A DNA stretch of 64,000 bases from Paramacrobiotus metropolitanus (taxonomy: Eukaryota; Tardigrada; Eutardigrada; Parachela; Macrobiotidae): the NCBI RefSeq assembly GCF_019649055.1, contig NW_026570343.1:124001-188000 (forward strand), in the 5' to 3' direction. The translations under genes and the position numbers were made by a program. Numbering within the stretch: the stretch's first letter is position 1; each line of letters begins with the position of its first letter. Under the pieces are notes generated by a model, which saw only the letters and a list, made by a program, of their open reading frames with translations, did no database searches and had not been told where the DNA came from. Of this stretch, positions 21,289 to 40,420 are shown piece after piece.

Positions 21289-21650
21289 TGCCTCTGGGGG
21301 GATGCCGAGCTCCGTTGAGGCTGGACACACTCCCGAATCCACGAAAAGACGACGGTCGCCAGTGTCTGTGCGTGCTCAAAAACATCAAATTCTCTTATTC
21401 CATTTATCACATCAATTCCATAAGGCACAATTCCATTAACACGATGAGAATAAAGAGATCCATTTATAAAAATACTATCATCATAAAACAGATCAACAGT
21501 TAAAGGATCAACAAAAGTATTAATCAAATGTAGACTAGGATCCCCCATTTCTGACTCGTAAAGGTCACAGGTTCTGTCCACCGTTTTCCGCACTTTGGCC
21601 CATTCCGCTCTGTTGAGCAATTCCGCGCATCCGTAGTGCGACTTCATCAC
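21189..21650 (-). CDS. Last ORF of the giant element, running into the LTR
   Basis: 153 residues from ATG 21650, ending inside the 3' LTR (stop 21189-21191). The first 110 residues look globular (mixed charged and aromatic, with repeated N-G words); the rest is LTR translation. I do not recognise a family. It carries one octamer copy at 21560. Confidence 0.35.
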   Translation of the reverse strand: MMKSHYGCAELLNRAEWAKVRKTVDRTCDLYESEMGDPSLHLINTFVDPLTVDLFYDDSIFINGSLYSHRVNGIVPYGIDVINGIREFDVFEHAQTLATVVFSWIRECVQPQRSSASPQRHVSRGSLAFTSATLRHSDYVSVLCLASDWLAFC

Positions 21651-22846
21651 AATCCGCTTGAAAATCAGGTGCGTATCAAGTACGACTTCGGGAATACTGC
21701 TTCAATTTTCGGAATTGGTGCGTATCAGTTGTACGACTTAAAATGAGATCCAATAAAGGTCATGGAGGGACGTCATGTAGACAAGCGTAGTTCGCTTCCT
21801 CCCTGGTAAAGGTCATCCTTTGTTGAGATGATTCGTTGAGATGTGCGACTCATTTTGGGTTAATGGTCCCAAAAGGTCATGCGACTTGAATTCAGATACG
21901 GTGACTCTGTTGGGCAATGATGATCCCAAAGGTCATCCAACTTCTTTTCAAACTTCCATGTAAGGTCATGGAGGAACTTAGCCAATTTTCTGCAGCTTCA
22001 AGCACTTCTTTGCTTGCCTCCCTGGTAGAAGCTTTTAATTTGACCTTACCGTCGCACATCCAACTTCAACATGCCTCGAGCGGCAAAAGTGCCGGCAGAG
22101 TTTACCGTAACATCTCTGATGGGGCCGGCTAACTACCGCATTGAATTTACCCCATGACGTTTCCACATTCAATCTTTTACTCTTGTTCGCCGCTTGTGGC
22201 CCACCTTCGTTTCGAGAGATCCGGCTTAATTACCGTAGTTTCTCTCGTTAAGTTCTGACACTGAATCGCTTGGAGAGATGGCCGGCACATTTTACCGTAG
22301 CAACTCTAATGAGGCCGGCTGACTGCCGCATTTAGTTTACCCCAATAACATTCCACCTGTTGTCTTTCTCTTTTCGCCGCTTGTGGCCCCCTTTCGTATT
22401 CAAGAGATCCGGCTTGATTACCGTAGTTTCTCTCGCCAGTTTTATTCGAACTAACACTGAATCGCTTAAGGAGGAGAGCCGGCTAACTGCCGTAACTGCT
22501 CCCTTGGGGCCGGCTTTAGAGACCGAATCAATTTCAACCCCAATTTCAACCCCGAACTAACACTGAATCGCTTAAGGAGGAGAGCCAGCTGACTGCCGTA
22601 ACTGCTCCCTTGGGGCCGGCTTTAGGGACCGAATCAATTTCAACCCCAATAGATGCTCCACATGATTTCTTTATCCCTTCTGATTCTGTGCTATAAACGC
22701 TGCAAACAACAAATACACAAATACAGTTAGTGTGAATATGTCACGCCGCCCCTATACAACAACCATTTTTAATTTTTGTGACGTACCGACAAATGCCGTA
22801 GACGTCCTTTTAATCGATCAACACTATTCCATCCTAACGATCAACA
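21651..22846 (-). other. Noncoding 3' region with octamers and GCCGGC-type repeats
   Basis: Four exact AAAGGTCA copies on the plus strand (21755, 21808, 21872, 21928) plus AAGGTCA at 21962. From 22085 to 22650 it holds degenerate repeats built on gccggct(a/g)actgccgta: a pair at 22140-22450 and a near-perfect tandem pair at 22456-22558 and 22559-22649. No coding frame is convincing. Confidence 0.6.
22456..22649. repeat. Tandem pair of about 97-103-bp repeats
   Basis: Both copies read cactgaatcgcttaaggagg, then agccggctaactgccgtaac-like sequence, and end in a run of caatttcaacccc. Two changes distinguish the cores. Confidence 0.75.
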
Positions 22847-23599
22847 CTATTCCATTTCATTTGAATCGCCCTCGCCATCTCTTGGCGGGCGCTTTTTAGT
22901 ACTTTCCGGTTGATTACGGTCAGATGTTCGGTCAACTGGTTCCGTCGAATCGACTTCCATGGCCTTTTCCGGGTCAACTTCTCGCTGACCGCGACCTTTC
23001 CCTTGACGACTTCGTTTAACCGCATCGACTCGATGGCGTGCGTCATTTTCTTCCAACCGCAGTCTTCGATTATTAGGGTCATCGGCTAATCGACGTTGTA
23101 CATCGGCGAGATTATCTCGAAGCTGCTGGTTTCGTAGGCCACGTCGTCCTATCTGGTTAGGAGCGCGTTCTGGGCGTCGTTCGCCTTTGTTCACTAGAAA
23201 TTCCGTTATGTAGACGTTGACTCCGTCCACTGGTTCAACGTAGTCGCTTCCCATGGTATTTTTGATCAGATTAATTCTCTCTTCAACCTGGGAGGCATGG
23301 CGCTGTGTGAGGTTGCCCTTTTCCATTCGTGTCTTGCACTTTTTCAGCGCCTTCCGAGCCGTATGAGCAATTCGTATATGTTCCATGGGCTCTCCCAGCT
23401 TAGTGACTTGAGGTCGGAAAAATGGTGGAATATCATCCTTCATCGTATTAGATACCAGCTGGTTCTGTGTCTTATAATGTGCCAATCGTGCAGCAAAGAC
23501 CTTCTGCCCATCCTTCTTGCGGCATAATCTTTCGGATCTACCTGTAATCCGATCGACGCTCTTGCTGCAAGCAACTTGAACGCTGGATTCACGTATCAT
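22847..23599 (-). CDS. Accessory ORF: basic, charged, helical protein
   Basis: 250 residues from ATG 23599. It is rich in Arg, Lys, Asp and Glu; residues about 150-210 form a charged helix, and the tail is acidic then Lys-rich. No known domain. Its ATG overlaps the TGA of the preceding ORF as ATGA, an arrangement that allows termination-reinitiation, although a frameshift explanation is equally simple. Confidence 0.5.
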   Translation of the reverse strand: MIRESSVQVACSKSVDRITGRSERLCRKKDGQKVFAARLAHYKTQNQLVSNTMKDDIPPFFRPQVTKLGEPMEHIRIAHTARKALKKCKTRMEKGNLTQRHASQVEERINLIKNTMGSDYVEPVDGVNVYITEFLVNKGERRPERAPNQIGRRGLRNQQLRDNLADVQRRLADDPNNRRLRLEENDARHRVDAVKRSRQGKGRGQREVDPEKAMEVDSTEPVDRTSDRNQPESTKKRPPRDGEGDSNEME

Positions 23600-24220
23600 A
23601 GAAGGAACTGAGCCACATATTCCTGTCGTTCGGGATAGTCTGTGTAATAAAATTGGGTCATCCCAACCGGGTCAGTCGTATCCAGGGGCACATCCAATAA
23701 ACTCAAGTCCAGTAGGCTATGTAACCCATTCCGTCGGACAGGGAGATAACAATCTCTTGCAGAGTCACGGGGAATGTATAACCGACGGAAATTTCCTCCT
23801 TCCACTCCCTTTTTAATTTTTTTAGCGTAGCCCGAATCGAGTAAGAATTGTGCCAATCTTGTTAGCTTCAACCGAATCCGAATCGATTCCCAAATATCGA
23901 CAAATTTCCACCGTTTGCTCATCAACGTCATTCATGATGTATTCCATGTCGACAAGGTCAGGGTATCGGTTATTGAATCGGGAAGTCGTTCGTCGATCAG
24001 TTTTGCGACGATCATACGGTTCACGTCGTCTTTCTGACTCGGGCTGCGACGGTTCATTACTCGCCGATGTAGCCGGTTGAAGGTCACTGTCGAGAACCAC
24101 GTTTCTTCGGTAAATCACGTTCTCTTGAGACGCTTTTGCAACTGAACTGGTCCCTTCCATCGTGTTATCTTCTTGTACGGCATTCACAATTGGATTCACT
24201 ACGTGGACTGGTGATTCCAT
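23596..24220 (-). pseudogene. Accessory ORF of the giant element, two frames
   Basis: The first frame (ATG 24220 to 23822) is disordered and then folded. The second (to 23596) continues the same helical segment, so a single-base frameshift lies near 23825 next to a run of T (plus strand). The second part has aromatic-rich, globular composition with a Y-Y-T-D-Y word. Not recognised. Confidence 0.5.
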
Positions 24221-24465
24221 TCGCTGATGCTTTGGAGGTGTATCTTCCCGTTCCGCGCTCGATGACCTTTTGCTTACACCAGACTCAAAGCCGGCGTAAT
24301 ACGCAGTTCTCTCTTGCCATCTCTTATCATGTGGGTCTGGTGTTCGATCCGCGTACGCTCGCGCCTTTTATCCCATGTCCTTTCAGGTGTTGACATTCTG
24401 ACATTGCAATTACAGAACGCAACTCCAAACGGCACCTGATGACCTTTCTTTTCAGGCTCTTTACG

Positions 24466-25533
24466 TTAAGTCTCCGCACGCGGTTGTTCTTCTCGTCCTC
24501 TGGTCCCTGCCAGAATTCTTGCGGTATCGATCTTCCGTTGAATGCTGGTTTCCGTGATTTCGTTTCTATGGCGCACCCATCCTCTTCCGCCACGGTATTT
24601 TCGATCGCAGGAACGTTTGCGTGACCTTTCGCTACGATAATCGCATGCCCTTTCACGAGAGTATTCGCGTGACCTTTCGTTTCGTCTTTCAGAAGTCCGC
24701 TCATGTTCACGTGAATGTCCTCGTGACCTTTCTCTATGCGGAGGCGTTCGTGGTCGTATAAACCCTTCATACCGCTTAAATCCTCTAAGCGCCTGCAGAA
24801 CGCTCCTTCTGTTTTGACGGGCTTTACGTAGCTCCTCCATACGCTTTTCAATCTCCTTCTTAATATACGGCGCTGGGGCGAATCCCTTCTGCAGTCTCAA
24901 TTTTTCCCGCAACAGCGCATCGAATAAGTCCTGTTGCATAGCGGCCGGGTCACTCGTCAGCGTGTCAATCTGAATAATCAGCGACTGACGTGTAAGCTGC
25001 GCCTCTTCTTCGTTAATACTTGCTGTCGGTACGGCTGGATTCGATGAGTTAGGCAGCCCCTCACGTGCAGCTTGTTCGCTTGCCCGTCTATTATCCGCTT
25101 CAATTTTGGCGCGCAGTTCGTCTTGAAGTCGTTGCCGCTGCATCTTCTCTTGGTCTCTTTCAAACTGCTTACGATATCCATCGGTTAAGGGATCTTTCGG
25201 TGGTTCCATCGTTATATCCCAGCCAGGTTCCTCATCTTTTATGGCCTGTCTGTATGGGTCTTCGATCAGCATTCGATCAGGCAACCCGACGTTGGGGTAA
25301 TGTGTCTTAGTAATCAACGTGCGGAAAATTTCCATATTGCCCCGAATGGCCTCTTTCGTTACAATCCAGAGTGGATTCTCCAGTCTTGTTGCGCGTGCCC
25401 AACATGGGTATTTACCGCTCTTTATAATGTTATTCCGTTTACAGTCCGGACACTTCGGATTATAGCCCGTAGATCGATCAATATCTGACGCTGTTCCTGA
25501 GCGTTGAGAAGTGGCTTGACCTTTTTGTGCCAT
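24466..25533 (-). CDS. Accessory ORF: zinc-ribbon-like N-terminus and RS-rich tail
   Basis: 355 residues, intact, with ATG 25533 in good context (AAAA before ATG). Residues about 25-45 have C-P-D-C and a further Cys, a partial zinc-ribbon pattern. Residues 120-260 are coiled coil or charged helix. Residues about 265-330 form an Arg/Ser-rich tail made of S-R-E, S-E-R and R-S words, like SR-type RNA-binding or splicing proteins. Several of these words are the translation of the octamer GAAAGGTCA as E-R-S. A role in RNA binding or splicing control is inference. It sits between a linker-histone-like ORF and another basic ORF. Confidence 0.6.
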   Translation of the reverse strand: MAQKGQATSQRSGTASDIDRSTGYNPKCPDCKRNNIIKSGKYPCWARATRLENPLWIVTKEAIRGNMEIFRTLITKTHYPNVGLPDRMLIEDPYRQAIKDEEPGWDITMEPPKDPLTDGYRKQFERDQEKMQRQRLQDELRAKIEADNRRASEQAAREGLPNSSNPAVPTASINEEEAQLTRQSLIIQIDTLTSDPAAMQQDLFDALLREKLRLQKGFAPAPYIKKEIEKRMEELRKARQNRRSVLQALRGFKRYEGFIRPRTPPHRERSRGHSREHERTSERRNERSREYSRERACDYRSERSRKRSCDRKYRGGRGWVRHRNEITETSIQRKIDTARILAGTRGREEQPRAET

Positions 25534-25920
25534 TTTTCCGCTTCAAATCTGCAATTAAACAACTCCGTTATAGTGATTTTTCCAAGATTAGCTTGTCCGT
25601 TCTTATCCAGTAACGCAACTTTTCTATCAGTTTTACGCCTTTTAGGCTATTCCGTTACTGAGCTGAGACTTTCCTAGCTCGTGCTACCCTTTCTATCACT
25701 GTAACGTGGTGACCTTTCTCACGTTATTAGCGTTTTCTGACTACTGTGACCTTTTTCTGTTAGTCTTATCGCTACTCTCGAGTTGACCCTTTTTCCGCTT
25801 TCTCGTATCCGTAACACGTTCGTTTTGAACTATTTTATGCTTTTTCTGTAATATGCAGTGGTTCATTACTCGCTGCATATTAAGCTGTCACGTTCACTCA
25901 GACTCCTTCGCCGGCGGGTT

Positions 25921-26307
25921 CTACAGTTTGAAGTCAACTCGTCCATCCTTATTAATATGAAGCGCTTCGTCTGCAATCAAGGCTTCAACGGCATTTTTGA
26001 TCCATTCCTTGTCCTTCTCAATGTTCAATTCTCCCAGTTCGTAGTGGACAGCTATGAAGTTCGAAAGGTCAGCCCATGACGCTCCATTGGTGCCGCCAAT
26101 GGCGTCCAAAGCCACATCTGTGACGGCTATCTTCCAGGCCTCCAGCTCCATTTTAAGTCTGGGTGTGCGATCCTTGCCCTGTTTCGGAATGTAGTAAAAA
26201 ACGTTGTTGTCCTTGTTATATTTACATCCCAACTTTCCTTCCTTATACGCTCGTTTCAAGACTCGCTCGCTCTTTCGTAGTGGATGCCGAGATGACGACT
26301 GGAACAA
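25921..26307 (-). CDS. Accessory ORF: linker-histone (H1/H5)-like winged helix
   Basis: 128 codons with no in-frame ATG at the start; the upstream frame is blocked by TAA, so this is the C-terminal part of the preceding ORF after a frameshift or a spliced unit. Residues about 58-128 follow the H15 pattern: V-T-D-V-A-L-D-A-I-G-G, then G-A-S-W-A-D-L-S-N-F-I, H-Y, a charged stretch, W-I-K-N-A-V, a small loop and a final F-K-L. In linker histones this winged helix binds nucleosomal DNA at the dyad. The preceding ORF ends in a Lys-rich tail, which fits a chromatin protein. The match is by eye; another winged-helix family is possible. Confidence 0.5.
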   Translation of the reverse strand: MFQSSSRHPLRKSERVLKRAYKEGKLGCKYNKDNNVFYYIPKQGKDRTPRLKMELEAWKIAVTDVALDAIGGTNGASWADLSNFIAVHYELGELNIEKDKEWIKNAVEALIADEALHINKDGRVDFKL

Positions 26308-26319
26308 TCTGTTTTACAG

Positions 26320-27261
26320 CTAGGACCTTTCCTTGGGTGTTAGCGACTCAGGCTCGGTGACCTTTAACTTTGATGTAGCTGATGCGATAACAAATTTCTT
26401 TGAAGTTGTAGGTGTCGATGACCTTTCTTCAACTTCGGCGGCTGACTCATTCGGAATTTCGACATCGGGAGAAGACGGTTTATCCTTTTTCTTTCTCTCT
26501 CCTTTCTTTTTCCCGGTGCCTGTGCCCTCGCTATCATCACCACTCTTTTTCCTTTTTTCTGCTTCTTCCCTTCGTTTCTTAAGGAAGCCACCTTCTTTAG
26601 CCTTTTCACGGTTCAATGCTTCTTCCAGTTTGGGCGCTTTACGTGGTTTCACAACCACTTTTGGGGGCTTTTTGTGTTTTTCGACCATTTCCTCATCTTC
26701 TTGGACCGATTCTTCTGCTGATTCGTCCTCTTCTTCTTCATTGTCTGAATCTTCTTGTTTCGAAGACCGTTTAGCGTCTCCGATTTCTTCGGCTTCGGTT
26801 GTTGCGGCCTCTTCCATTTCCCCGGCTCCACCTTCTTGTGCCGGCTGTTTGCCCTGTATTTCCAAATCCAGTGTCTCTACGGTTTGTCCTTGTGTCACAA
26901 TCTCCCACAGGGGGTTCAATTTCGCGTCATAGAACACCGTCTTATACGATCCGTTTTCCATTCTTCTAGTGAGTCGGGAATGGGCTTCATCTATTTCCGC
27001 TCGGTGTCGCATCATGCTGATCAGTGTGTTTGATTGGACTACAGGATCTTCACGTTCGCTTTCTGGTATCAAGTCCCACAGCTGATCAAGGGCTGTCTGG
27101 TTAGCATGTTCGGCGCTCTTTTCTGACACGTCCCATGGGGCGTATGGAATCGGATCTCCTGTTACTGGATCGACGATTACTGCGGTTATAACTTCCGATG
27201 CTCCCTGGCCGAAATGGAGTTTGAGCGTTACTTTCCTGGATGTTGCATCGGTGTACTTCAA
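26320..27261 (-). CDS. Accessory ORF: globular N-terminus with acidic/Lys-rich tail
   Basis: 313 codons; the frame stays open upstream of the nominal start. Residues 1-140 look folded (alternating hydrophobics, several Trp and Pro). Residues 150-195 are an acidic Glu/Asp block and 195-270 a Lys-rich block with K-K-K words, followed by Ser/Thr-rich sequence. It ends 13 nt before, and in a different frame from, the linker-histone-like ORF, so the two may be one protein. Highly charged tails of this kind are typical of chromatin-binding proteins. Not otherwise recognised. Confidence 0.5.
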   Translation of the reverse strand: MKYTDATSRKVTLKLHFGQGASEVITAVIVDPVTGDPIPYAPWDVSEKSAEHANQTALDQLWDLIPESEREDPVVQSNTLISMMRHRAEIDEAHSRLTRRMENGSYKTVFYDAKLNPLWEIVTQGQTVETLDLEIQGKQPAQEGGAGEMEEAATTEAEEIGDAKRSSKQEDSDNEEEEDESAEESVQEDEEMVEKHKKPPKVVVKPRKAPKLEEALNREKAKEGGFLKKRREEAEKRKKSGDDSEGTGTGKKKGERKKKDKPSSPDVEIPNESAAEVEERSSTPTTSKKFVIASATSKLKVTEPESLTPKERS

Positions 27262-27603
27262 AATCGACTCATAGTCATCTAATGTTCAGGTGTATGTCCG
27301 CCGTCGGCTTTGGCCGGGTTCTTTCTTTTGTCAACAACTTTCCATCCGCTGTGTATGTGTATGCCAAGTGATCGTCATTCGTGCCCACTTAAATTCGGAT
27401 CCATGCGTCCTCTTCATTTGCTATTTTCGACACCACGTGTTTCATCATCTGAATGAGGACTCTCGGGTTATGACACTTTTCCGGGGGAATGAATTGTAAC
27501 GCCTCGTTGACTTCTGTCTATGACCTTTGCCCAATCTCAGTTTTGACTGAGTTATCTGCGAGAGGATTGTATGAGTCAATCTCCTTATTCGTTCTTTTAT
27601 CAA

Positions 27604-28164
27604 CTATCCGAGCCGTGACTTTTCGTTCGTTATGGTCCGTCCCGGTATATTTGACTGTGAAAGCCTGCATTTCGGAAATCGAAGCGGGGCATCTCCCGTG
27701 TCCGACGGCGTGGGCGGCGCGCTCTTTCTACCCAACGGTATTGGTGCCTGTGGCTTAGCCGGCGGTGCTTTACTCGCCATGACTTTTTTAGTCCGCTGCT
27801 CTTTTCTGTCTCCTTTTTTTGGGCTCATCGTTGGTGACCTTGCTCTTTTTCCACTCTTCACACTTCCTTGAGATGAGTATGTGGTCGAACCAGCCCGTTC
27901 ACGGCTTGAACCTACTACTGAGCTGGCTCGTGACCTTTCCGCTCGTTCAGTAAGTTCAGCATGAATCTTTCTTTTCGTTTCCAAAAGGTCACTGTCCGAC
28001 ATTCCGTCTATAGATGCTGCTTTTTCGGCTAATGGTTTGGATGGTCTCACACTGCTGGTCGTTGAAATGATTTTCTCTTCCGGGAACACTTTAAGATATC
28101 TCAGGACCTTCTCAATAATCCAAGGCCATTGCCTGCCATTTACTGCCGGGTGATATTGCCACAT
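27604..28164 (-). CDS. Accessory ORF: disordered Ser/Lys/Pro-rich protein
   Basis: 186 codons. A short aromatic N-terminal segment (W-Q-Y, W-P-W) is followed by basic, Ser-rich and Pro-rich sequence with S-P-T-M-S-P and P-P-A-K-P words. Two octamer copies (27930, 27984) are inside it. No known family. Confidence 0.45.
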   Translation of the reverse strand: MWQYHPAVNGRQWPWIIEKVLRYLKVFPEEKIISTTSSVRPSKPLAEKAASIDGMSDSDLLETKRKIHAELTERAERSRASSVVGSSRERAGSTTYSSQGSVKSGKRARSPTMSPKKGDRKEQRTKKVMASKAPPAKPQAPIPLGRKSAPPTPSDTGDAPLRFPKCRLSQSNIPGRTITNEKSRLG

Positions 28165-28357
28165 CGATGCGATCTTTATCGCTAATTCTTAGCGCTTTGC
28201 TTCTGTTACTTTCGTTTTCTCTTTCAGTGGGATGTGGCATGGTTTAATGACTGCCTCCAGGCTGATCAACTTCCCATACCATCCATGTCCATCTTCAACT
28301 CTCATGTGAATTCTGTAAAGGTCGCGGCACATCCTGTTAAAGTCCTAGATTGCCCCT

Positions 28358-29182
28358 CTATCCGTCTGTCAATCTTTCCGCTTTGTCCACGATCACATTC
28401 AAACGCGCGTCATCTTCTCTGAGATCCAAAGGAAGTTTTGGCGCGTACTCATGCACTGAAGGTTCGCATGGGGACGTTGCCCGTAACCCTTCTGGTCCGA
28501 TCTCTTCTAAATTGGGGCCCAGTGATGGCAACATACCTCGCGGTCGTGGTGAATCAAAACGGTTTCCTCCTCGCCTCCCTCCTTTCTGTGGCGAGTATCG
28601 GTGAGGCCGTTGCGCTCTTAGTTGCTGCGGTGTTCTCAAACGAGGTGTTCCAATGTCCGACAGTGACAGACCTCCCGTTTTGGGAAAGGGTGGCAATATC
28701 GGCGATGACCTTTGAGACTGCACTGGAGTCGCTAACATTCCACTAAATCTGCGATGTCCCATAAGTCTACTCGGTGTAGTCTGTTGCGGTGGTGGCATCA
28801 GCATCCTTGCCGGTCCGATTATTCCTTGCTGCAATCCCATTATCGGTGGTGTATATGTTCCTGGGTACGGCTGATAAGGGTGATTCTGCATCGGTTGTTC
28901 CGGATACTCGGTTCCGGCAGGTGAGCCGTGGTGCACCCAGTGAGTTATGTCCTGATAGCCTGTTGGCTGTTCTGGATTATGATAGTGATAATAGCCCGGC
29001 CCCCCGTAATAACCGCCTTGCGCCGTTCCATGTTCGTTCTGTGCTGTTCCTGCTGATGACGTCGACCCCTCACCATATGAGGTGTCATAACCGTGTTCGC
29101 CCTCCATTCCATTAAGTGTCGATGTCTTCAACGGATTTCCGATGCTTTCCGAATCTGAATTGTCTGAGTTTTGCCGTTCCAA
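28358..29182 (-). CDS. Accessory ORF: Gly/Tyr/Pro/Gln-rich disordered protein
   Basis: 274 codons, open from a TAA just upstream. N-terminal part Ser/Asp-rich, then a low-complexity Tyr/Gly/His/Pro section (G-G-Y-Y-G-G-P-G-Y-Y-H-Y-H), then Met/Pro/Gln-rich, ending with an Arg/Gly-rich segment and a short amphipathic helix. It resembles prion-like or condensate-forming domains in composition. No catalytic features. Confidence 0.5.
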   Translation of the reverse strand: MERQNSDNSDSESIGNPLKTSTLNGMEGEHGYDTSYGEGSTSSAGTAQNEHGTAQGGYYGGPGYYHYHNPEQPTGYQDITHWVHHGSPAGTEYPEQPMQNHPYQPYPGTYTPPIMGLQQGIIGPARMLMPPPQQTTPSRLMGHRRFSGMLATPVQSQRSSPILPPFPKTGGLSLSDIGTPRLRTPQQLRAQRPHRYSPQKGGRRGGNRFDSPRPRGMLPSLGPNLEEIGPEGLRATSPCEPSVHEYAPKLPLDLREDDARLNVIVDKAERLTDG

Positions 29183-29398
29183 TCTGTCCGTTAACTGAGT
29201 TTATCTTCTGTAACAATGAAACGATATCGGTTAGCTTTTTATAACGGTGATGTCCTTTTCTTTACACCTTCCCAACTCCAATTTTTATTGTCATGAACCC
29301 CATTATTCATATTTATGTGGGTTATTTGTTTTCGCGTCCTTTAGTTATCCGATCTAGAAGTCCCTTGTCGGCAGCATCTTCAGCTTCGCCTTTCTGGG

Positions 29399-30190: not shown

Positions 30191-31238
30191 ATCCGCCTCT
30201 TTCTTTGGATTCTGTTTAATGACCTCTGCTTCATTTGTTCGAGGGAAACTGAGAATCTTCCATACTTTATCGTAACTCTGTTCATCGCCGAAATAACGTA
30301 CGGAAGGTACTTGTTAAACTTCCTTTCATTTCCCGCTTTGAGATACTGAGCCAGACCATCCGCAATCGTCTGCATCTGTCTTTCAACTTGGCCTTGACCT
30401 TCTGGATGATACGCCGTTCCAAACGTGTGTTTAATCTTGAACACGTTGGTGACCTTTGTCAACACTTCAGCTGTAAGATGCCGTCCACGATCCGTGTGTA
30501 AGATGTGCGGTGCTCCGTGTACCAATATAACGTGTTTAACAAACACTTTTGCAAACTCTTTTGCCGTTGCCGTCTTCATTGGTACCGCAATTACGTATTT
30601 CGTTAGTTAATCGATGAACACCGCTATGTACTTATATCCTCGTTTCTTCGTTGGTAACAACGGTCCTTTCAGGTCCGCGTAAACTCGGAAGAAGGATGTC
30701 CTACTTTAATTTCTTGCAGCTTTCCGGGTGGACACTTTCTTGGCGTCTTTCGGAATTGACATCCTTGGCAGGCGAGTATGTAATTCTTTACATCTGTACT
30801 CATTCGATTCCAATAATAGCGGAGTCTTATCGCTGATAGTATCTTTTCGAATCCCAAATGGCCTGCCGCTTTCTTGTCGTGCAATGCATGGATTATCGCT
30901 CTTCGCATTGACAACGGTACCACATATGACCTTTCAAGTTTCCCATTTTTATCCTTTACTCGATACAGTATGCCATTCCACAACTGGTGATGAACTTCAA
31001 ATTTCGATTTCGTTTCGGCATCTGGTAGATGTTCCATTTCATCTATTATCATTGCCAGATGGGGATCTTTTAACTGTTTATTTCCCAACTGCAAGTTCGA
31101 GTCGTCTTCCTCTTCCTCGTCACCTTGCAGGTTGACAATGCGGTCTGTCGCCGTACTGAGTTCATTCCAATCTTTGATGATTTTGCAACATGGTAGTGGT
31201 TTATACCTCTTCTTCGTCTGCTTCGGAAATCTCAGCAA
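30187..31238 (-). pseudogene. Integrase (zinc-binding and catalytic core), broken
   Basis: Integrase inserts the cDNA. 31238-30669 ends with the H2C2 zinc-binding segment: H-A-L-H, then H-L-G, and C-Q-G-C. The core then crosses an in-frame-equivalent TAA at 30607-30609, directly after the F-I-D word. 30579-30187 carries the rest: H-T-D-R-G (second Asp), Y-H-P-E-G-Q-G-Q-V-E-R (Glu). The first Asp is in the A-D-L-K-G-P word near 30670. All three acidic positions are therefore present, but the frame is interrupted at least twice. The motif order and P-E-G-Q-G-Q-V-E-R box are diagnostic for Ty3/gypsy integrase. Confidence 0.85.
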
Positions 31239-31411: not shown

Positions 31412-33461
31412 TCACTTTGGCTTCTGTTTCAGCCGACTCATTCGCCGTAGCTGAAGTGCCTTTAATCGTTTTTCTCTCTGTTCCATCATCTGCAGGAAAA
31501 ACTGTCCAATTTCAATTGCCGGTTCTTTCGTGTCGAATTCTTTCTTATAATCCTCGAAGTTTGGAATCTCATCAAATTCTTCCTCTTGACACGTTGGGCC
31601 TTCAATTGGCGCTCTTGATAACGCGTCCGCATTATCGCAATATTTTCCCGGTTTGTATTCAATCTTGAACTGATGACCTTGTAATCCCATTGCCCATCTC
31701 GTCAGGCGCGGGTTCATTCCAACTTTATTTGTTTCTGACCTCAACAAGTTGGTCAGTGCCCGGTGATCCGTTCTTACGGTGAATTCCGCATAATTAATAA
31801 ATGGCTTGAATTTTCTGACAGCAAACACCACTGCCAGACATTCCCATTTCGTTACACCGTAATTTCTTTCTGCTCCATGTAAGGCGCGGTTGGCGTACGC
31901 GATCGGATGACCTTCCTGTGATAGGGCAGCTCCGATTCCTTCTTTGCTCGCGTCACATTCAATAACGGTCGGCTTTGCCGGGTCAAATTTCGCTAACACT
32001 GGGCCTTCGCATGCAGTTGTTTCAGACTGTTGAATTCATCCTCATGTACCTTTGTCCAGTCTTTCTTTACTTGTTTATCCTGTCTCAGCGGCTCGTTCAA
32101 ATGGCACGTTTTCTGCGCGTACCCCATTATGAACTTGCGATAGTAATTCGCTAGTCCGAGCAATGACCCTAATTGCCTTTCTGTTTGAGGTCGTTTAAAT
32201 TCTGAGACTGCTGTGACTTTTTCGGGGTCCATTCTAATTCCGTCTTCGCTGAGGATATGTCCTACGAATCCCATTTATCTCATTCCGAATTCACACTTGG
32301 TTGGTTTGAGCGTGAATCCCGCTTCTACCAGACTCATTAAGACGTTTCTCAAATTCTGCATGAAGATCGCCCACGTTTTTCCGGCGAAGATAACGCCATC
32401 AATGTACCCGAAAACGCAACGCTTTCTTTTCGCTTTCGAAAGTACTTTATCCATGCACAGTTGAAATGTTGCTGGTCCGTTGCAAACTCCAAACGGCATC
32501 CTTTTGAACCGCTACATTCCGTCTTGCGTTACAAAGGTCGTCTTATTGATTGACGCTGGATCCATTGGGATCTGCCAGAATCCACTTTGTAGGTCCATTT
32601 TTCCGTAGTATTTGTTGCCTGCGCACGCGTCGAGCAACTCATCTGGGTTCGGTAACGGATAGTTGTTCTTTCTCGTTAGCTTGTAAAGCATGATGTAATT
32701 GACGCAAAATCTCGTCCCCATTGTTCCGTCACCGTTTTTCTTTACTGCCGCACGACTGGAAAACTCCACTCGGCGCCCGACGGTTCAATTACATCTTGTG
32801 CCAACATCTCTTTGATATGCTTTGTTATGAACTCGCGGCCTGTCCAACTCGTTCTGGCCGGGTTACATTTAACTGGTTTTGCATCTCCCGTATCAATGAC
32901 GTGAGTGACCCCTTTCACATCTCCGTATGGTTTCTTTGATGTCGGCAAGACCCTCCAGAATTCCCAGAACGCGTTATACACGTCTTTTTTCTGTTCTTGG
33001 GTAAGGTCAGGTCCCAGTTTCAGGTTTTCAGTTATCTTTTTCAATTCAGCTTTCGTTGTGTCGTCCAACTCAGGGTTTTCAAGCACGTTCTTTACTGTAC
33101 CAGCGTTCACCCTTACATTCTCCATGTGTTCGTAAGGCTCCACGTAGCCGAGAAGCTGATTTTTCTTCATGATTTGGTATTTCCTACTGTGATTCGCAGT
33201 GACGATTTCGAAATATTTTCCTCTGTGGTCCGTCACTCCTGCTAACGGTTGCACATCAGTTTCAATTTCTGGGACCGGTGTGAACATCGACTTGTTTTGA
33301 GCCGGTGCATATTTTCCCATCTTGACCTTTACGCGTGTGCAGCTTGACGGTTTCAATCTGATTCGTTTGTCACTGCACACTTTAATCACATCTTTCGACA
33401 GTCTTGCTTTTTCCATTTTCACTCTTTTGACTTTTATCTCTTTTTCATTCTCTTCGTCCAC
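31412..33461 (-). pseudogene. Reverse transcriptase-RNase H, broken into five frames
   Basis: Pieces: 33461-32742 (N-terminal linker with the D-A-K-P-V region), 32769-32512 (motif A, K-M-D-L-Q-S-G-F-W-Q-I), 32499-32275 (motif B region, P-F-G-V-C-N-G-P-A-T-F-Q, and motif C), 32274-31993 (thumb, G-F-V-G-H-I) and 31999-31412 (RNase H, with I-E-C-D-A-S-K-E-G-I-G and T-D-H-R-A-L). Motif C reads Y-I-D-G where Ty3-type enzymes have Y-x-D-D, so the second catalytic Asp is lost. The enzyme copied genomic RNA into DNA; this copy cannot. Conserved domains here contain almost no copies of the octamer that fills the rest of the element. Confidence 0.9.
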
Positions 33462-33511
33462 TTCGTCATCTTCATCGAAGTCCAGTAAATCATCTTGTTC
33501 TGAAAGGTCAT

Positions 33512-34396
33512 TTACGCCCGAATCTTCTGAAGTCGTTGAATTATCACTTGAACTCGCCCATTCCGAGTCCGAATCACTGCTCTCGTATTCTTGTGCAGTG
33601 GCTTGACCTTTGTCAGCCTTTTCGAGTGGACGCTCATCAACTCCTTCGTCTTCTGATGAAAGGTCACTTTCGTTTTCCCGCGAACCGCTAAGTTTTTCGC
33701 TTTCGAATTTTTGAGCAGAGGTTTGTCCGCTTCCTTTGCCTTTCGCCCATTTCGTGCAGCGATTCTTGGGTGACTCCTTGCTACCCGGCTTCTCGTTGGT
33801 GACCTTTCTGATTGGTCGGAGTTTGACCTTTCTTCTTCCGTTTTTGACTTCTCCAATTCGTCAATATCTTCGAGGCTCAATAACTCAATAAACGGTCCCT
33901 TAGTCCCTTCGATGGGTGGCTGTTTTTCACAGTCATCTGGTGCCTTTTCGTCAACTTTCAACTCAGGTGCTGGCTTTTGCTGCTCATTCGATATTCGTTC
34001 CACTTCCTCTTTAAATTTTTTCCACATTTCGCCTTTGTCCGTTAACATCTGTGCAATGTCGAAAGCCGACTTTGAACTTTCTTCTGTTTCGTTCGATCCT
34101 CCTTCATTTATCTCTTTAACTGGTTCCCCCTTATCTGCTTCTTTTACAGTCGCTTTATCGACTTCGTCCTGTTGGACCGTTTCATAACCTTTGGGTTGTT
34201 TGGGACCAACGAAGGCGCAATTTGCCATCAATTCTTCGGTGACGCAGTCAGCGCCTGGAATCGTCTCATACATACACCACGTGTCGCCACCTGGTTCTGG
34301 GTAGTCCACTCCATCTGGGTCTGGTGCAGAGTTCACTTTTTTCTTTTTCATCAAACCCGGTAACCTTCTTTTCCGGGTTACTTGTAATTCTCGCAT
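33512..34396 (-). CDS. Long disordered ORF between protease and RT
   Basis: 294 residues from ATG 34396. Basic start (R-K-R-R-L-P), Cys-containing middle, then Glu/Lys-rich disordered sequence and a basic end. It has a D-I-D-E-L-E acidic patch. No known domain. Four octamer copies fall in its last third. Ordinary Ty3 elements have no such ORF here. Confidence 0.5.
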   Translation of the reverse strand: MRELQVTRKRRLPGLMKKKKVNSAPDPDGVDYPEPGGDTWCMYETIPGADCVTEELMANCAFVGPKQPKGYETVQQDEVDKATVKEADKGEPVKEINEGGSNETEESSKSAFDIAQMLTDKGEMWKKFKEEVERISNEQQKPAPELKVDEKAPDDCEKQPPIEGTKGPFIELLSLEDIDELEKSKTEEERSNSDQSERSPTRSRVARSHPRIAARNGRKAKEADKPLLKNSKAKNLAVRGKTKVTFHQKTKELMSVHSKRLTKVKPLHKNTRAVIRTRNGRVQVIIQRLQKIRA

Positions 34397-34492
34397 CTCG
34401 TTTACATCAAATCTGGGGATTTCCTCTTCAAATTTATTCCAGTATTTTTCAAATGCTTCTTCGTTCCCCTCTTTTAACGCATCGTAGTACGC

Positions 34493-35549
34493 TTAGAGCG
34501 ATTCGTAAACAGGTGTGCCAGGTCCTGCCGGGAAAATGACCGTTCTACCTTCGCATTTATACATGTGGTTCACACGGAAGTCCCAGAAGAGATCGACTCT
34601 TGCTTCTTCCCACATTTCTCCTTCTTCGTTCATCTCTTCTATCTCTCTTTCGAAACTCCGTTCTGTTACTACCGGATCGAGGGGATCCTGGATTCCTTTC
34701 TCGACACGTTGTAGCCAGTGGTTTAGCCATTTTCCTCTTCCGGTAACAAAGTTTTTGACGCATGTCAACCAAATCGGTATCTGTTACAGTGATACCGTTC
34801 AATGTGCGGTTTCCACATTTCATTTGTCCGCATTCTACTTTTAACTTCCCTTTGGAATGACCTTTAAGGTCTGCCAGTGCGGCGTTACATCTTGGCCATT
34901 CCGAAAGGTCATCTTGTGAGGTCTTCTCGCGACATTCAGCACATTCCCATTGAGGCTGTACTCTACACGGATCCTCATAGTAACCGTGGTGACAACTCCC
35001 GGCTCGTTCTTCTGGAGTTAGTGTCTTTCGACTCGTTTGCGGATTGACATCCTCCTGTGCTGTAGCATCTTGTTCGCATTCGATTGGAGTCACGCTTTTG
35101 TCCTCAGAGGATATTTCGATGCTCTGTGGTTCTTTTTCTGTTCTGTGACCTTTTAACTGCTCAAGCGCCTTGTTGCGGATTTCACTCGTAAACATCTGTT
35201 CCTCTTCGGCTATTCGTTTCAATACCCGTAACCTTTCACTCTTTTTATCCTTCCACACTTTAGCCGTCTTTATTCCCAGTGCCTCTGGTACTGGGATAGG
35301 CTTTGCCCACTCCAAGCCAGGCACCAGCGATTGTTTCGCTGCAGCTGTCGCTTCTTTCTGTGTGGCAGCTATCTCTTCAAGCGTTGGTGACTTTTCGTTA
35401 TTAATAGCAGAGTGTGGTTCGAAAAAGGGTTCCTTTTGAGAGTCACGTTCTGTTACTTCTTCTTTAGTTTTATCCCTTTCATTTTGGGTAGCAGATCGTG
35501 GTTCGGAAAAGGTCTTGCTGACGTTTTTCGAATCCGGCTTCGATGCCAA
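34493..35549 (-). CDS. Cys-rich ORF with FFEP and PVPEALG repeats
   Basis: The main frame 35549-34557 has two F-(F/S)-E-P repeats near its start, one I-P-V-P-E-A-L-G word and a charged helix. It then has a Cys-rich region (C-H-H, C-x-V, C-A-E-C, R-C-N, V-E-C, K-C-G) that could bind zinc, and a basic end. A second frame (34768-34493) continues with acidic, Trp-rich, globular-looking sequence, so a frameshift lies near 34700. The Cys spacing is not a CCHC knuckle and I do not recognise it. Confidence 0.5.
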
Positions 35550-35886
35550 TTCTCAACTCGTATCGCCGGTGACCTTTCATCTTTCGTTCCCAGTGCCTCT
35601 GGTACTGGGATAACTTTTTCAACATTTCCATTTTCATTTTTTGTTTCCAGTGCCTCTGGTACTGGGATAATTTGTTCCTGCTGTGCTTTTGTCACATTTT
35701 GCTGCACTTGTGTCACTCTCGGTGCCTGTGGTACTGGGATGACTTTTTCTCTTCCCTTTTGTGTCAGCAGTGTCCGATTTAATGTGTTCTCGATTTCCTG
35801 CTGAATTGCTTTCAACTGCTTGAATGTCGACGATTCTTTTTGCACCACCTTTTTATGTTCCTTTCCCGGTGCCTCTGGTACTGGGA
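35275..35886 (-). repeat. Five copies of a hairpin-forming 20-22-nt word
   Basis: cccagtgcctctggtactgg-type words at 35275, 35589, 35646, 35720 and 35865. The outer bases ccagt/actgg are complementary, so each can fold into a small hairpin. Each encodes I-P-V-P-E-A-(L/P)-G or a close variant. Confidence 0.8.
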
Positions 35887-36010
35887 TTAGCGTTTTACTA
35901 TCCGTTTGAGCATTTCCTGTCTGTTTAACAAGTTCGGTGACCTTTCCGACTTGTACTTTGGCAACTGGTTTCGGGTCATCTTCCTTCTCTTCTTCGCCTT
36001 CGTTATCCAT
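35453..36010 (-). CDS. Repeat-rich ORF overlapping the protease stop
   Basis: 185 residues from ATG 36010, which overlaps the protease stop by 8 nt (atggataa). Acidic start, then four I-P-V-P-E/Q-A words separated by charged helical segments. No catalytic motif. Ribosomal reinitiation or a former frameshift signal would explain the overlap. Confidence 0.5.
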   Translation of the reverse strand: MDNEGEEEKEDDPKPVAKVQVGKVTELVKQTGNAQTDSKTLIPVPEAPGKEHKKVVQKESSTFKQLKAIQQEIENTLNRTLLTQKGREKVIPVPQAPRVTQVQQNVTKAQQEQIIPVPEALETKNENGNVEKVIPVPEALGTKDERSPAIRVENWHRSRIRKTSARPFPNHDLLPKMKGIKLKKK

Positions 36011-36674
36011 CAGTACGAACCGAGTCGAATCCTAATAATACTTGTACGTCGTCACACTTCGGTCGGACGTAGAAGGAGTGTTCGCTAGTCTTCTTCCTTA
36101 AGGTCACAGGTGCTACACAGTAATGTGTCACCAGAAATCCTGACGTTCCACTAATTCCATTTATCTTCACCAATCTATCTGGTGGTAATGAGAGCACTTG
36201 AAGTCCATTCTTCTCGCAGAACGGTTTGCTGATCAGCGACGCCTCAGCGCCGGTGTCCAGCATTGCGTTGACCTTTATGTCTCCCACTTTCACTTCGTGT
36301 GTGTACGCTTCAATTCTTTTGGGCAATTTTCCGTTTTGAATCGTCAATGTGTGAATCCTGCATTTCACAGGAATTAGCGATACTGATCCCGGATCCATAT
36401 CGGGGATCACTTGCCCCTTCGCCGAAGTGCTGTGACCTTTCAGTATCTCGCTCAACTTATCAATCCTGTTTGGCACGTTAGTTCGGACATCGTAAAATTT
36501 CTGCGGCTTTTTCTTATCTGTTTGCATTTCTGCAGCCATTTTACCACTGGTAACCTTTTCAGCATTCTGCACTTGCTCGTTTGCTTCTGTGCCAGCCGTG
36601 TGACTCTTTGTCACTTCCGATATCGTCTGATACAACACTTCTTCTTTCCGGTCACCTACACGTTCATCTTGCAT
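36003..36674 (-). CDS. Retropepsin-containing ORF
   Basis: 223 residues from ATG 36674. Residues about 130-215 are an aspartic protease of the retroviral/Ty3 type: hydrophobic strand, A-M-L-D-T-G-A-E-A-S (catalytic D-T-G), flap region with I-N-G-I-S-G-T, and a closing V-L-L-G-F-D. It processes the polyprotein as a dimer. The N-terminal part is disordered. The ATG lies only 8 nt inside the TTAA insertion boundary; upstream of that boundary the gag-like frame is compatible with this one. Confidence 0.85.
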   Translation of the reverse strand: MQDERVGDRKEEVLYQTISEVTKSHTAGTEANEQVQNAEKVTSGKMAAEMQTDKKKPQKFYDVRTNVPNRIDKLSEILKGHSTSAKGQVIPDMDPGSVSLIPVKCRIHTLTIQNGKLPKRIEAYTHEVKVGDIKVNAMLDTGAEASLISKPFCEKNGLQVLSLPPDRLVKINGISGTSGFLVTHYCVAPVTLRKKTSEHSFYVRPKCDDVQVLLGFDSVRTDG

Positions 36675-36682
36675 CTTCTTAA

Positions 36683-37558
36683 GAGGATCCCTATGAGACG
36701 AAAGTGGGTCTGGGAAAACATGAATAGGTTAATAACAGCTGAAGAATCATTGTTGCCATTGTTCTGACTGCATGCGCAAAGGGTTTTGCTACACAATGGT
36801 GTGTTGCGATCTTGTCTACGCTCTGTCTAGACAGAGATATTCAAGAAACAAAGGAAAAACTTCGAATTCTAAAGTCGAATGAGAAAGTTTTTTCAAATTA
36901 GATGTGCTACACATCATTGGATGTGTTTTAGCTTAGAAAGCTTATATTCTCCATCATGCTAAAAAAATGTTGTTAGTTTACAAAAAAATTGAGAAAAACA
37001 CTTTTTGAAAAGTGTTTTTTTGAGTTTATTCAAACATGCTTTAATGGACTATGGCAGTATCTCGGAATATAAGCTTTCTAGAAAATAACACACCGTATGA
37101 TGCCGATTTGGAAAATATAGAAGGTTTCACAATGAAGTTATCGATTTTTAAAGCCATTTAACAAGTTTTTGGAAAACGGCAGCTGAATGAAAGTCTTGCT
37201 GACTGACCGGCAGCAATGTGTGCCTGAGCCGGCTACCCATGCCCGCGTTGTGCAGGATAGAGATCAGGCAGAACAGCTTGAGAGGGAAGAATGAGCTTGG
37301 CTCCGGCCACAGGACAGCATGAGGCGTCCTGTTCTGCTGTCCAGGTCTATCTGCCATGCGGCTGGCCATGGCTAGCCGATAACATCATTGCATTTACTTC
37401 GCCTCTGCTGACCCGGTCTTGTTTTTTTACTAATAACTTATGATTACAATACAATATAACCCATCGAGACATACTATATGAAAGCCTGAAAAATTTCCTA
37501 CAAGCTGATGTCAATATTGATAACACATTTTTATGAAATTCATCTCATAGTGATCCCC
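36683..37558. mobile_element. TTAA-flanked nonautonomous DNA transposon (876 bp)
   Basis: Terminal inverted repeats gaggatccctatgagacg / ggggatcactatgagatg (18 nt, 4 mismatches) are flanked on both sides by TTAA (36679-36682 and 37559-37562), the target of piggyBac-like transposases. There is no ORF and no AAAGGTCA inside. Deleting the insert and one TTAA leaves the flanking ORFs in the same frame, which fixes the boundaries. It holds its own fold-back core (36912-37102). Confidence 0.85.
36912..37102. repeat. Fold-back core inside the TTAA insertion
   Basis: Arms 36912-36949 and 37065-37102 are inverted copies (shared inner part tagaaagcttatattc). Between them a perfect 12-bp hairpin (aaaaacactttt / aaaagtgttttt, 36994-37019). 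Confidence 0.75.
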
Positions 37559-38244
37559 TTAATAACTTCGCTTGTTATTTGGTCAGCTCGCTTCAGTTCA
37601 TTTGCTTCGCTGTCTTTCACCTCATCTGGTGACCTTTCATATGTAACCATATCATATCCCTTTTCGGTCATCCATTCAATCACCTTTGCAGACACTTCAT
37701 TGTTCGTTTTCTTCGGGTCGATTTGCGAAGACATTCCGTCTGTTCGGGCTGGTGACTTGTCATTGGCATCCTGTTGCAGTGCTTGTGATAAGTCCCGTGA
37801 CCTTTCAACTGCGCTACTCTGTTGCGTTTGCGCCATCTCAATTGACCGTCCTTTTTATTCATTTTGTGCCAAGTCCTGTGACCTTTCATTGCGCTTTATG
37901 ACAAATCCGCCGCTTGACAACTTTTGTATGGGGACTTTTTCTCCATAATTCGACGGTTTTCCTTCTGGTGGTGCGTTTAGTCGCATTTTCGAATCTGCGA
38001 GTGTCTTCTTGTATTCCTCTGCGTTAAATACTGGGGCAGGGTTCGGTGACACCTTCGTTGGTTTCCCGGTAACCAACTCTTCTAATCTTTTCCTCTCATG
38101 TTGTGTTCGTAATTCTTGCATGTCCCAGTAATCCTCTTGTGACATCCCCGCTTTCTGTTTCGCTTTTGGCGTTACGGGTATCCACATCCCGTGATTTCCG
38201 TTTGGTCTGCAGGCCACTTTTCGCCAGATTTCCTTCCGTTGCAA
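37540..38244 (-). CDS. Gag-like region, C-terminal ORFs
   Basis: Two adjacent frames (38244-37855 and 37836-37540). The first is basic with an R-P-N-G-N-H-G-M-W-I-P word, then Pro/Gly-rich; the second is hydrophilic and leads, across the TTAA insertion, into the protease ORF. No CCHC knuckle is visible. Assigned to gag only by position between leader and protease. Confidence 0.45.
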
Positions 38245-38298
38245 TGTTACTGCATCTACAAGTGAATCGTCGGAATTCTGTTGTGCCGGTTCGCTATT

Positions 38299-38872
38299 CT
38301 ATTGCTGCGCTGTTCGTAGTGTCAAGTCTGTTTCTTGACCTTTTATCCCTTTGGCGTTCGCACTCGCTCTTTGACCTTTCACTTGAGCTTTTCCTACGGA
38401 AGGTGACCTTTCATCTTTACTGTTACCAGTGATATTCTGCTCCATCCATTTTTGCTTTATTAACTTCTCAACTTTGTCCTCCGAACAATTCCAGAACTTT
38501 GGCTTTATCTCTCCGTAACAGTCGCAACGTGGTCGCAACCATCTCGTTCCGTTTTAATACTTCCTTTACCGGCACCCGTTTGTAGCGGCATTTCAAAATG
38601 GAAACTTTTGCCCGTGCCCGTCTCATGTGTCTTGCTGTAACTGGGCGGCAGTGATTCCACCGTTGCAGTTCTGACGCCGTATTGCAGGAGCTGTTCATCC
38701 TTATGTTAGTTCGACATGTGAGGGCCGTATTCTCATCTTCAAGGCGCCTAATTTTCAACTGGAATTCTTCCATCTCGATTTTCAAATCCTGATTTTCCTG
38801 ATTGACCTTCAACATGTGTTGGTGGAGTTGGAACGTTTTCTCCTGGACGAACTTTTCAGTATCGTTCTCCAC
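38299..38872 (-). CDS. Gag-like region, coiled coil and basic segment
   Basis: 38872-38468 opens with about 50 residues of classic heptad coiled coil (F-Q-L-H-Q-H-M-L-K-V then L-K-I-E-M-E-E-F-Q-L), followed by an Arg/Lys-rich stretch likely to bind RNA. 38538-38299 continues in another frame with K-G-Q and K-G-H words encoded by octamers. Confidence 0.5.
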
Positions 38873-38939
38873 TTTTTTATGTGTTCCACCAACTGGGTCA
38901 CATCTCTTTCTAATTTCATGTATTCTTCAGCTGCTACTT

Positions 38940-39423
38940 TTAGCTGGTTTTTGTTTGGGTGACCTCATCTTCTCCCGTCATTACCGTTTGGGTCATTTTG
39001 ATCAACTCCGTGTTGAGTTTGATAATTTCTTGTGTCTTCTGGTGGACAGTTTGTTGCCACTCTTTGTCTTTCAGTTCAAGCGCTGTTACCTTTAGCGCGC
39101 TCCCGGACAGCGCGCGCTGCGCTGTCCGGGAGGTGTGCCTCATGATCCCATCTCAAGCCTTGTTCGGCGATTGTCTTAGCGGCTCCTTTCAACTCAGTGT
39201 TCTCTTCGGTGACCTTTTCAATGTTTTCTTTCGACACCTTATTCTCTTCCATCACCTGTCTTATTTCATTGTTGAGATGTACGCCTTCGGTGGCTGTAAG
39301 GTCTCGCAGGTCTTTTGTAACTTTGACGGCGTCGTCGGCTCTTATCAGATGATCCTGTGATTCCTTCTGGAGGGTTCCAATATTCTGGTCTCGCAGCTTA
39401 AGGTCATTCCTGAGCTTAAACAC
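38940..39423 (-). CDS. Gag-like region, long coiled coil with a frame switch at a hairpin
   Basis: 39423-39076 and 39143-38940 together look like one long coiled coil: heptads of Leu, Ile and Val with charged partners on both sides. The frame changes exactly where a 14-bp perfect hairpin lies (39100-39132). The hairpin sequence breaks the heptads, so it may be an insertion. Confidence 0.5.
39100..39132. repeat. Perfect 14-bp hairpin, 5-nt loop
   Basis: ctcccggacagcgc and its exact reverse complement around gcgct. GC-rich in an otherwise mixed coding region, at the junction of two gag-like frames. Confidence 0.85.
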
Positions 39424-39437
39424 TTCAGTGGTGTTTG

Positions 39438-40055
39438 TTAACAGACGCTGGGTAGCTTCGGCCAGTTTGGTCGCGTATTCATCCCTCTTAGTTTCAGCTT
39501 CGGTTTCGGGGTTTCGAGCGATACCAGTCTCTCTTGGTATTCCTGTTTTCTTTTAGCCATCTGACCTTCCTTGGCTCCGAGTTCACTTTCCAAATCTTGG
39601 ACGCGTCTCCTCAGTGTCAGCGTAGGGCTACTTGGTGACGGAGGTCGTACGTTTATGACCTTTCCGGTTTGTGTCCGTTCGATTAGGTGTTGAGGTATGT
39701 CTTTGAATGGTGTCATACCTTCAGCACGGTCAGCCTCCTTCATCGCAGTTTGGAAGGACATATTCATCGTCGCTTCATCATCCGTGAAGTATGACTCGTT
39801 CGATTCGTCTTAGACCATTGGAGTTGCCCAAAGGACATCGCCTGCGGTCTTATCATTCAGTGAAAGGTCATCCAATCCCAGTTCAGTCAGTCCTTCTTCG
39901 GTGAACTTTGTTTTTCCAATTTCCACTTGAGCCAGGTTCACATTTTTATCCTGCTCGTCTACTTCGGCAGTGATAACACCCGACTGTGATGTTCCGACTG
40001 CCATCGTTTCTTTTTCTATGGGCTTCTCTTCCTCAGTTACCTTTGCTTGGTACAC
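39438..40055 (-). CDS. Gag-like region, N-terminal ORFs
   Basis: 40055-39810 (open further upstream, no ATG at the nominal start) is acidic with alternating hydrophobics. 39767-39438 starts with an M-N-M-S-F-Q word and runs into coiled coil (R-R-V-Q-D-L-E-S-E-L). They are separated by a stop and a frame change. Nothing resembles a known Ty3 capsid at sequence level. Confidence 0.45.
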
Positions 40056-40063
40056 CCTTGTTG

Positions 40064-40420
40064 AAGGTCACTTTTCGACTGAAAAAATTCGACAAAGTTC
40101 CGTTTGAAGGTCACTTTTTTGGTAAAAAGTTAGAGAGATTTGCCTCAAAGGTCACTCTTCAGATAGAACTTCGAAGCCGTTTTTTACAATTCAGAACACG
40201 TTTAGGAATAGAATCCTACAGCTGCTGGTATCGCTGTACTAATGTTCAATTCAATTGCAACTTCGTTGAAGGTCACCGTTGGTCAATTCAGACTCTTAAA
40301 GGTCAATCAAAAGGTCATTTCGGTCAGTTTCAACTTTTCGGTAAAGGTCACTTTTCAAAGTCAAAGGTCAACTTCTGGTGTTAAAGGTCACTTTCCTGCT
40401 CGTCTCAACTCAAAAGGTCA
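40064..40420 (-). promoter_or_regulatory. Octamer cluster in the element leader
   Basis: Seven exact AAAGGTCA on the plus strand (40147, 40298, 40310, 40343, 40363, 40383, 40413) and three AAGGTCA (40064, 40107, 40269) in 357 bp, all in one orientation. AGGTCA is the half-site of nuclear hormone receptors, and A-rich 5' extensions favour monomer binders. The adjacent sites at 40298 and 40310 are direct repeats 12 bp apart. Function is inference. Confidence 0.6.

Follow-up and report, generated by a model that had tools for sequence, protein, structure and literature searches.

A conserved octamer array in a giant Ty3-type retroelement of Paramacrobiotus metropolitanus and its candidate readers

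Why should a single octamer, AAAGGTCA, recur dozens of times, on both strands and inside genes, in one giant retroelement of a tardigrade? The element is of the Ty3 type and occupies positions 20950..41632 (minus strand; 20,683 bp) of a 64,000-nucleotide stretch of Paramacrobiotus metropolitanus DNA (contig NW_026570343.1, positions 124,001 to 188,000; hereafter the window), where it is recognised by its pair of long terminal repeats (LTRs), its protein domains and its collinearity with copies of a related clade, clade B. The octamer proves to be a unit of nucleic acid under strong purifying selection, element-wide, and it is likely to serve as a DNA-binding site for a monomeric reader.

Enrichment and conservation of the octamer

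A recount agrees with the first-pass annotation of the window in placing 55 exact copies of AAAGGTCA between 21560 and 40420 and 3 in the rest of the window, and all 19 of the example positions named there recur in the computed list. Some of our counts used element bounds of 20939-41582 and others the refined bounds of 20950-41632; all 55 octamers lie inside both. An order-1 Markov null for the element predicts 1.0 copy, with a maximum of 5 over 300 simulations, which is close to the chance expectation of about 0.6 given earlier, and no other octamer of the element is as strongly enriched (z ~45 for AAAGGTCA). One-base variants had been undercounted at "about 15", since 51 are found in 20950-41632 versus 41 in the remainder of the window, the commonest in the window being AAAAGTCA with 9 copies. 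The first base of the word in the window is A in 55 cases, G in 8, T in 5 and C in 3, and the ranking of A, then G, holds also in the related clades A' and C introduced below. The flanks of the octamers in the window copy are near-random, with only G favoured before the word and G disfavoured after it; because they are so poor in information, most sites probably arose one by one.

Much of the array lies in coding DNA. The 23 pieces of homology-supported coding sequence (13.9 kb) hold 33 octamers, versus a mean of 2.2 and a maximum of 8 in 500 synonymous-codon shuffles, so that the excess persists under the codon-preserving null that had been proposed as a check. Among these, 27 are sense and 6 antisense; the sense copies are read in all three frames (13, 9 and 5), with an E-R-S reading 11 times, as the first-pass annotation had noticed in saying that the frame differs within open reading frames (ORFs). 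Over the whole element 35 of the 55 octamers are sense. A 5' noncoding cluster at 40147..40420 (plus strand; 7 octamers), in which the three sense frames are filled with stops, is antisense to the element in 7 of 7 cases, and a 3' noncoding cluster at 21560..21935 (plus strand; 5 octamers) in 5 of 5. The remaining 43, which fall on both strands at 24263..39870, comprise 35 sense and 8 antisense copies, 33 of the 43 being inside the homology-supported coding pieces; the antisense octamer at 39863 falls within the ORF1 pieces and not in noncoding DNA.

A search of the genome (169.8 Mb, 533 contigs) with a piece of the integrase gave 1,084 candidates, 150 of them as scored matches; these show 74-94% identity, excluding the window copy, and open frames of more than 3,000 aa surround 4 of them. 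A tree of sampled copies resolves clades A/A', B and C (with D), each supported at 100/100, and the window copy lies inside clade A/A' but ungrouped there. Within A' we aligned 29 copies over a block of 2,488 columns spanning reverse transcriptase (RT) to integrase, in which the copies differ on average at 11.7% of columns. Seven octamer sites, which are every position with an octamer in any copy, are kept in 29, 28, 29, 26, 25, 29 and 28 of the 29 copies, and one extra octamer, present in one copy, lies outside the kept columns of the block. In a control of 14,600 octamer-site pairs from the same block, 1.3% are kept in at least 25 copies. Third codon positions have a diversity of 0.0225 within the octamer columns versus 0.2957 elsewhere, a value matched by none of 5,000 random windows of the same phase (permutation p 2e-4). 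The antisense coding octamer of the block is kept in 25 of the 29 copies. This constraint at synonymous positions across 29 copies upholds the earlier claim that the conserved unit is nucleic acid and not peptide.

Conservation extends between clades as well. In rows comprising the first 6 of 28 A' copies, 3 C copies (from 6 C/D rows) and 3 of 5 B1 copies, AGGTCA is retained between A' and C in 162 of 210 comparisons, versus 0.18 for all hexamers, and between A' and B in 1 of 174, versus 0.21 for all hexamers. Once stretch L036 is dropped, A' has four octamer positions in common with every one of the five C rows and a fifth, which is antisense, in common with 3 of them; two A' positions are missing from C, and two others are found in C only and are common to D. 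When the window copy is compared with the copy on C103 (sites opposite gaps being omitted, and one of the three alignments being only 60% identical), the coding octamers of the window are kept at 11 of 13 sites and its 3'-noncoding ones at 3 of 4, versus 0.23 for all octamers; of the C103 octamers, 11 of 21 in coding and 4 of 6 in noncoding DNA are kept in the window, a lower retention because the window copy has decayed. Divergence across the clades that conserve the octamer is about 27%.

Distribution among clades and in the genome

The array is restricted to part of the family. The window copy has 55 octamers in 20.6 kb, a C stretch 32 in 6.2 kb and a D stretch 11 in 11.2 kb, and two further C stretches, which were picked by an extended-octamer search, reach 29 and 16 over 3.0 kb each. 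Clade B has none in 33.9 kb (three copies; stretches L039, L040, L043, L044 and L045, on C44, C97 and C1). In the RT-integrase block all five B2 rows carry one octamer, at the same position, and none of the five B1 rows does, and a B-like stretch picked by the extended-octamer search (L001) contains 2 over 3.0 kb. Three pieces, 7.0 kb in all, from a distant Ty3 lineage in this genome (annotated protein 47% identical) lack the octamer altogether. Looked for in other copies and in related Ty3 elements, as had been proposed, the octamer is thus carried by clades A/A' and C (with D) but not by the three clade B copies or the distant lineage.

Density in the octamer-bearing copies ranges from about 1 per kb (the decayed D copy) to 10 per kb. 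By comparison, 86 kb of stretches that lack family-like protein and were not chosen for their octamers (L047-L052, L065-L068 and the flanks of the element in the window; L008 and L002 left out) contain 15 octamers, or 0.17 per kb, and so the enrichment is not equal across the host genome, the outcome that the first-pass annotation had said would count against it. The value of 0.17 per kb is nevertheless about twice the rate of the reversed word. Genome-wide, AAAGGTCA occurs 42,562 times versus 15,522 for its reversed word, and GAAAGGTCACC 2,576 times versus 120. Stretch L008, also picked by the extended-octamer search, has 4 octamers in 3.0 kb without a family-like protein. There is, then, a weaker excess beyond the recognisable parts of the family, which may consist of old fragments or of host sites.

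Could the excess be without function, produced by the spread of tandem repeats, by codon usage or by recent common descent? In clade C (L041 5496-5598 and L003 236-479) most octamers follow one another at intervals of 18 or 24 bases, in codon phase, and because these gaps are multiples of three, part of the dense C cluster suggests local in-frame duplication. Codon usage, however, yields 2.2 copies where 33 are seen, the near-random flanks of the window copy speak against repeat spread, and the word is conserved both within copies about 12% divergent and between clades about 27% divergent, while being absent from the three clade B copies and the distant lineage. We regard this explanation, which the synonymous-position constraint already contradicts, as very improbable indeed.

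As to the history of the array, clade C branches outside A'+B both in a nucleotide midpoint tree and in a protein outgroup tree (support 87/88 in the latter, with long branches). Therefore the simplest history, with moderate support, would be that the array is ancestral and was lost in clade B. A replacement motif was sought in clade B by k-mer and expectation-maximisation scans, which gave diffuse, coding-like words and nothing sharp. AGATCA is found at some positions where the octamer is lost, for example at column 691, where 9 of the 10 B rows read AAAGATCA; we do not claim active removal of octamers, because these sites are too few. Octamer-free clade B copies with long open frames in the same genome constitute a natural control.

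Candidate readers

The spacing and orientation of the sites bear on how they may be read. Among octamer sites scored as heptamers, some of which are homologous between C and A/A' pieces and hence are not all separate events, gaps of less than 16 bp number 3 versus 21 expected; gaps of less than 8 bp are impossible for the word itself, and at 8-16 bp alone the counts are 3 versus 10.6. Gaps of 32-64 bp are in excess (61 versus 32), and for seven control words, compared at gaps of less than 16 bp only, close pairs are not scarce. Such spacing fits separate protein molecules on DNA. Sites for nuclear-receptor dimers were rejected, close pairs being depleted.

Alternatively, the octamers could act in RNA, either as a packaging or protein-binding signal or through pairing of UGACCUUU in the noncoding ends with AAAGGUCA in the body of the element. 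The ends of the window element are antisense in 12 of 12 cases and the rest is sense in 35 of 43, so that the ends are complementary to the body; moreover, one C piece is sense in 30 of 32 cases, and AAAAGTCA, with its 9 copies, would be tolerable as a wobble on antisense sites. The bias of the ends recurs elsewhere: in a C copy 7 of 7 octamers ahead of the ORF are antisense, and in an A' copy 5 of 6 past ORF4 run one way. However, antisense coding sites are kept like sense sites (25 of 29 copies at one site, and 4 of 5 comparisons between the window and C103), and ORF1 of the C copy holds 11 sense and 8 antisense octamers, where a single-strand signal would be expected to run one way. Where A' has AAAGGTCA, the window copy reads AAAAGTCA at two sites of the block, which looks like decay, and a sense bias in coding DNA can be produced by amino-acid choice. 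The first-pass annotation had named as candidate roles the binding of a host factor and signals in RNA or related to small RNA. Conservation in both orientations, together with the wide spacing, favours DNA binding over an RNA signal, which we think improbable though not negligible.

The reading that we prefer, at about even confidence, is that the octamers are monomeric sites on double-stranded DNA, dispersed as an array over the element and maintained there by purifying selection, with a host nuclear receptor of the NR4A/HR38 type as the most likely reader. Excerpts of PMC7901948 give the NR4A response element, NBRE, as AAAGGTCA, and describe NR4A as binding as a monomer or homodimer. The first-pass annotation had remarked that AGGTCA is a nuclear-receptor half-site; this remark can be sharpened, in that the whole octamer equals the NBRE of that source and the host has an NR4A/HR38 gene. 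The host orthologue was found in three exon pieces at C45:296815-298439 (L069-L071) that contain the boxes CEGCKG and RGRRGRLP. These we take to be the P-box and A-box of NR4A, and the preference for A at the first base accords more with NR4A than with receptors whose site is CAAGGTCA. If so, a receptor with a response element of exactly AAAGGTCA would occupy tens of sites over 20 kb, and would thereby maintain transcription or an open state of the integrated element in receptor-expressing cells. Binding, the identity of the reader and any effect on transcription or silencing are what we infer here from sequence comparison. A paper on tardigrade C4 zinc-finger proteins has neither NR4A nor HR38 in its main text (PMC12941274).

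A second candidate is a reader encoded by the element itself, in the manner of VANC, whereby the end of ORF3 would bind the octamers and keep silencing off the family. The C-terminus of ORF3 (25924..26313, minus strand) is a predicted tandem winged-helix region, according to a structural model and fold comparison of its clade B version, and its second unit is predicted to resemble the globular domain of linker histone; PF00538 matches the clade B version at E 0.0047, short of its cut-off. On these grounds it may be considered a candidate DNA reader. With an octamer identical to the NBRE and an NR4A/HR38 gene present in the host, the host receptor likely leads and the element-encoded reader, which we consider rather unlikely although it is the main rival, comes second.

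Several points weigh against a simple array of host-receptor sites. In the A' block, 6 of the 7 sites fall in a single reading phase, so that the conservation seen there bears mostly on one frame. Clade B shares the same host, yet it is octamer-free in the 33.9 kb of its three copies, with frames open to 2,982 aa. Pieces of 63 nuclear-receptor DNA-binding domains were matched in the genome, and another host protein or receptor could possibly read the same word. An enhancer would need no sites throughout coding DNA, and simple binding of a monomer demands no bias of the kind seen in the one-way noncoding clusters (7 of 7 and 5 of 5 antisense). None of the readings offered here accounts fully for the one-way ends.

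How does the array compare with known systems? Among known kinds it stands nearest, by analogy, to the VANC/VANDAL array, described for VANDAL21 of Arabidopsis in excerpts of PMC5735166, with the motif YAGTATTAY and the reader VANC21. The excerpts share with our case a short motif, dense in one transposon family and with subgroup-specific variants, and noncoding-region motifs in the same orientation (PMC5735166). According to them (PMC5735166), however, VANDAL motifs are chiefly noncoding and often tandem repeats, whereas here 33 of 55 lie in coding pieces under synonymous constraint and the flanks of the window copy are near-random, with some in-frame repeats in C. The host element is here an animal LTR retroelement, and its only counterpart of a VANC reader is the predicted winged-helix candidate in ORF3. 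The NBRE, as excerpted from PMC7901948, agrees with our array in the identical octamer, sites that are not closely paired and the presence of a host NR4A gene, but is described there in promoters of target genes, as opposed to 55 copies across a transposon and its coding sequence. Burro of planarians, in excerpts of PMC6431247, is likewise a giant Gypsy-like LTR element of an invertebrate with extra coding regions; it differs in size (internal part up to 25 kb, more than 30 kb overall), and the features reported there are the protein domains of a single very large polyprotein, as opposed to a code in the nucleotides (PMC6431247).

Among the matches listed from the open-licence literature, no title concerns such a retroelement array or this element family. 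It is conceivable, although we would sooner doubt this than adopt it, that the tens of spaced octamers are a selected DNA address code laid over the element's own genes, which a nuclear receptor or an element-encoded reader would take, all sites acting jointly, as a licence against silencing along 20 kb, and which the sister clade dropped. If so, it would be, to our knowledge, the first code of this sort within coding DNA. That one octamer is under synonymous constraint this strong, dozens of times over, points clearly to a reader acting in trans. If that reader were the host NR4A, the fate of a selfish element would be tied to a conserved receptor and thousands of the receptor's sites would have been added to the genome; if it were encoded by the element, we would have an animal counterpart of VANC and a model for the escape of transposons from silencing.

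Structure of the element and its surroundings

The 5' LTR (41294..41632, minus strand) and 3' LTR (20950..21288, minus strand) are 339 nt each, 98.2% identical, in direct orientation and octamer-free. On the element strand, TGGTAGCAGAG lies directly after the 5' LTR, in the position of a tRNA primer site, and is a putative match to initiator tRNA-Met. Inspection of the LTR flanks, without a systematic test, revealed no obvious target-site duplication, and Rfam and tRNA scans of the 64-kb window returned nothing.

Four collinear ORF regions are present as in clade B, but frameshifts interrupt them in the copy of the window; two clade B copies have an ORF1 of at least 985 aa, an ORF2 of 2,828-2,982 aa, an ORF3 of about 1,780 aa and, in one copy, an ORF4 of 966 aa. 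All pieces lie on the minus strand. The pieces of ORF1, which has the gag position (38471..40049), are 41-51% identical to ORF1 of clade B and 51-71% to that of C103, and gave no match to Pfam gag. Those of ORF2 (29402..38298) cover protease, RT, RNase H, integrase and a C-terminal extension. Because the window copy contains an aspartic protease (36003..36728; PF13650, E 4.4e-08), RNase H (31412..32035; PF17917, E 1.9e-31) and the zinc-binding domain of integrase (30669..31262; PF17921, E 2.5e-20), the element is assigned to the Ty3 type, and the order of these domains is that expected for Ty3/Gypsy; in clade B, a single frame of L039 holds RT, RNase H and integrase, and L043 has protease upstream. 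ORF3 pieces lie at 25924..29200 and ORF4 pieces, in which no domain was found, at 22850..25542. Searches with ORF3 and ORF4 pieces gave nothing significant among PDB sequences, and a Foldseek comparison returned nothing at E 0.001. ORF3 was suspected from L077 and L078 to be missing from clade C, but this idea was abandoned, as its C-terminus matches downstream of other C integrases.

Two 106-nt tandem units are found at 22447-22650, just past ORF4 in the 3' part of the element. Within ORF2, CAGTACCAGAGGC recurs on the minus strand at 35281-35883, with 4 exact copies and 1 one-mismatch copy in about 600 bp, and possibly reflects a repeated peptide; the related GTACCA is likewise enriched in clade B. 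Finally, Hsp70-like genes flank the element on both sides, at 17331-18455 and 45136-46887, the former being 100% identical to one P. metropolitanus protein, with 11 further P. metropolitanus proteins (51-63%) as its nearest others.

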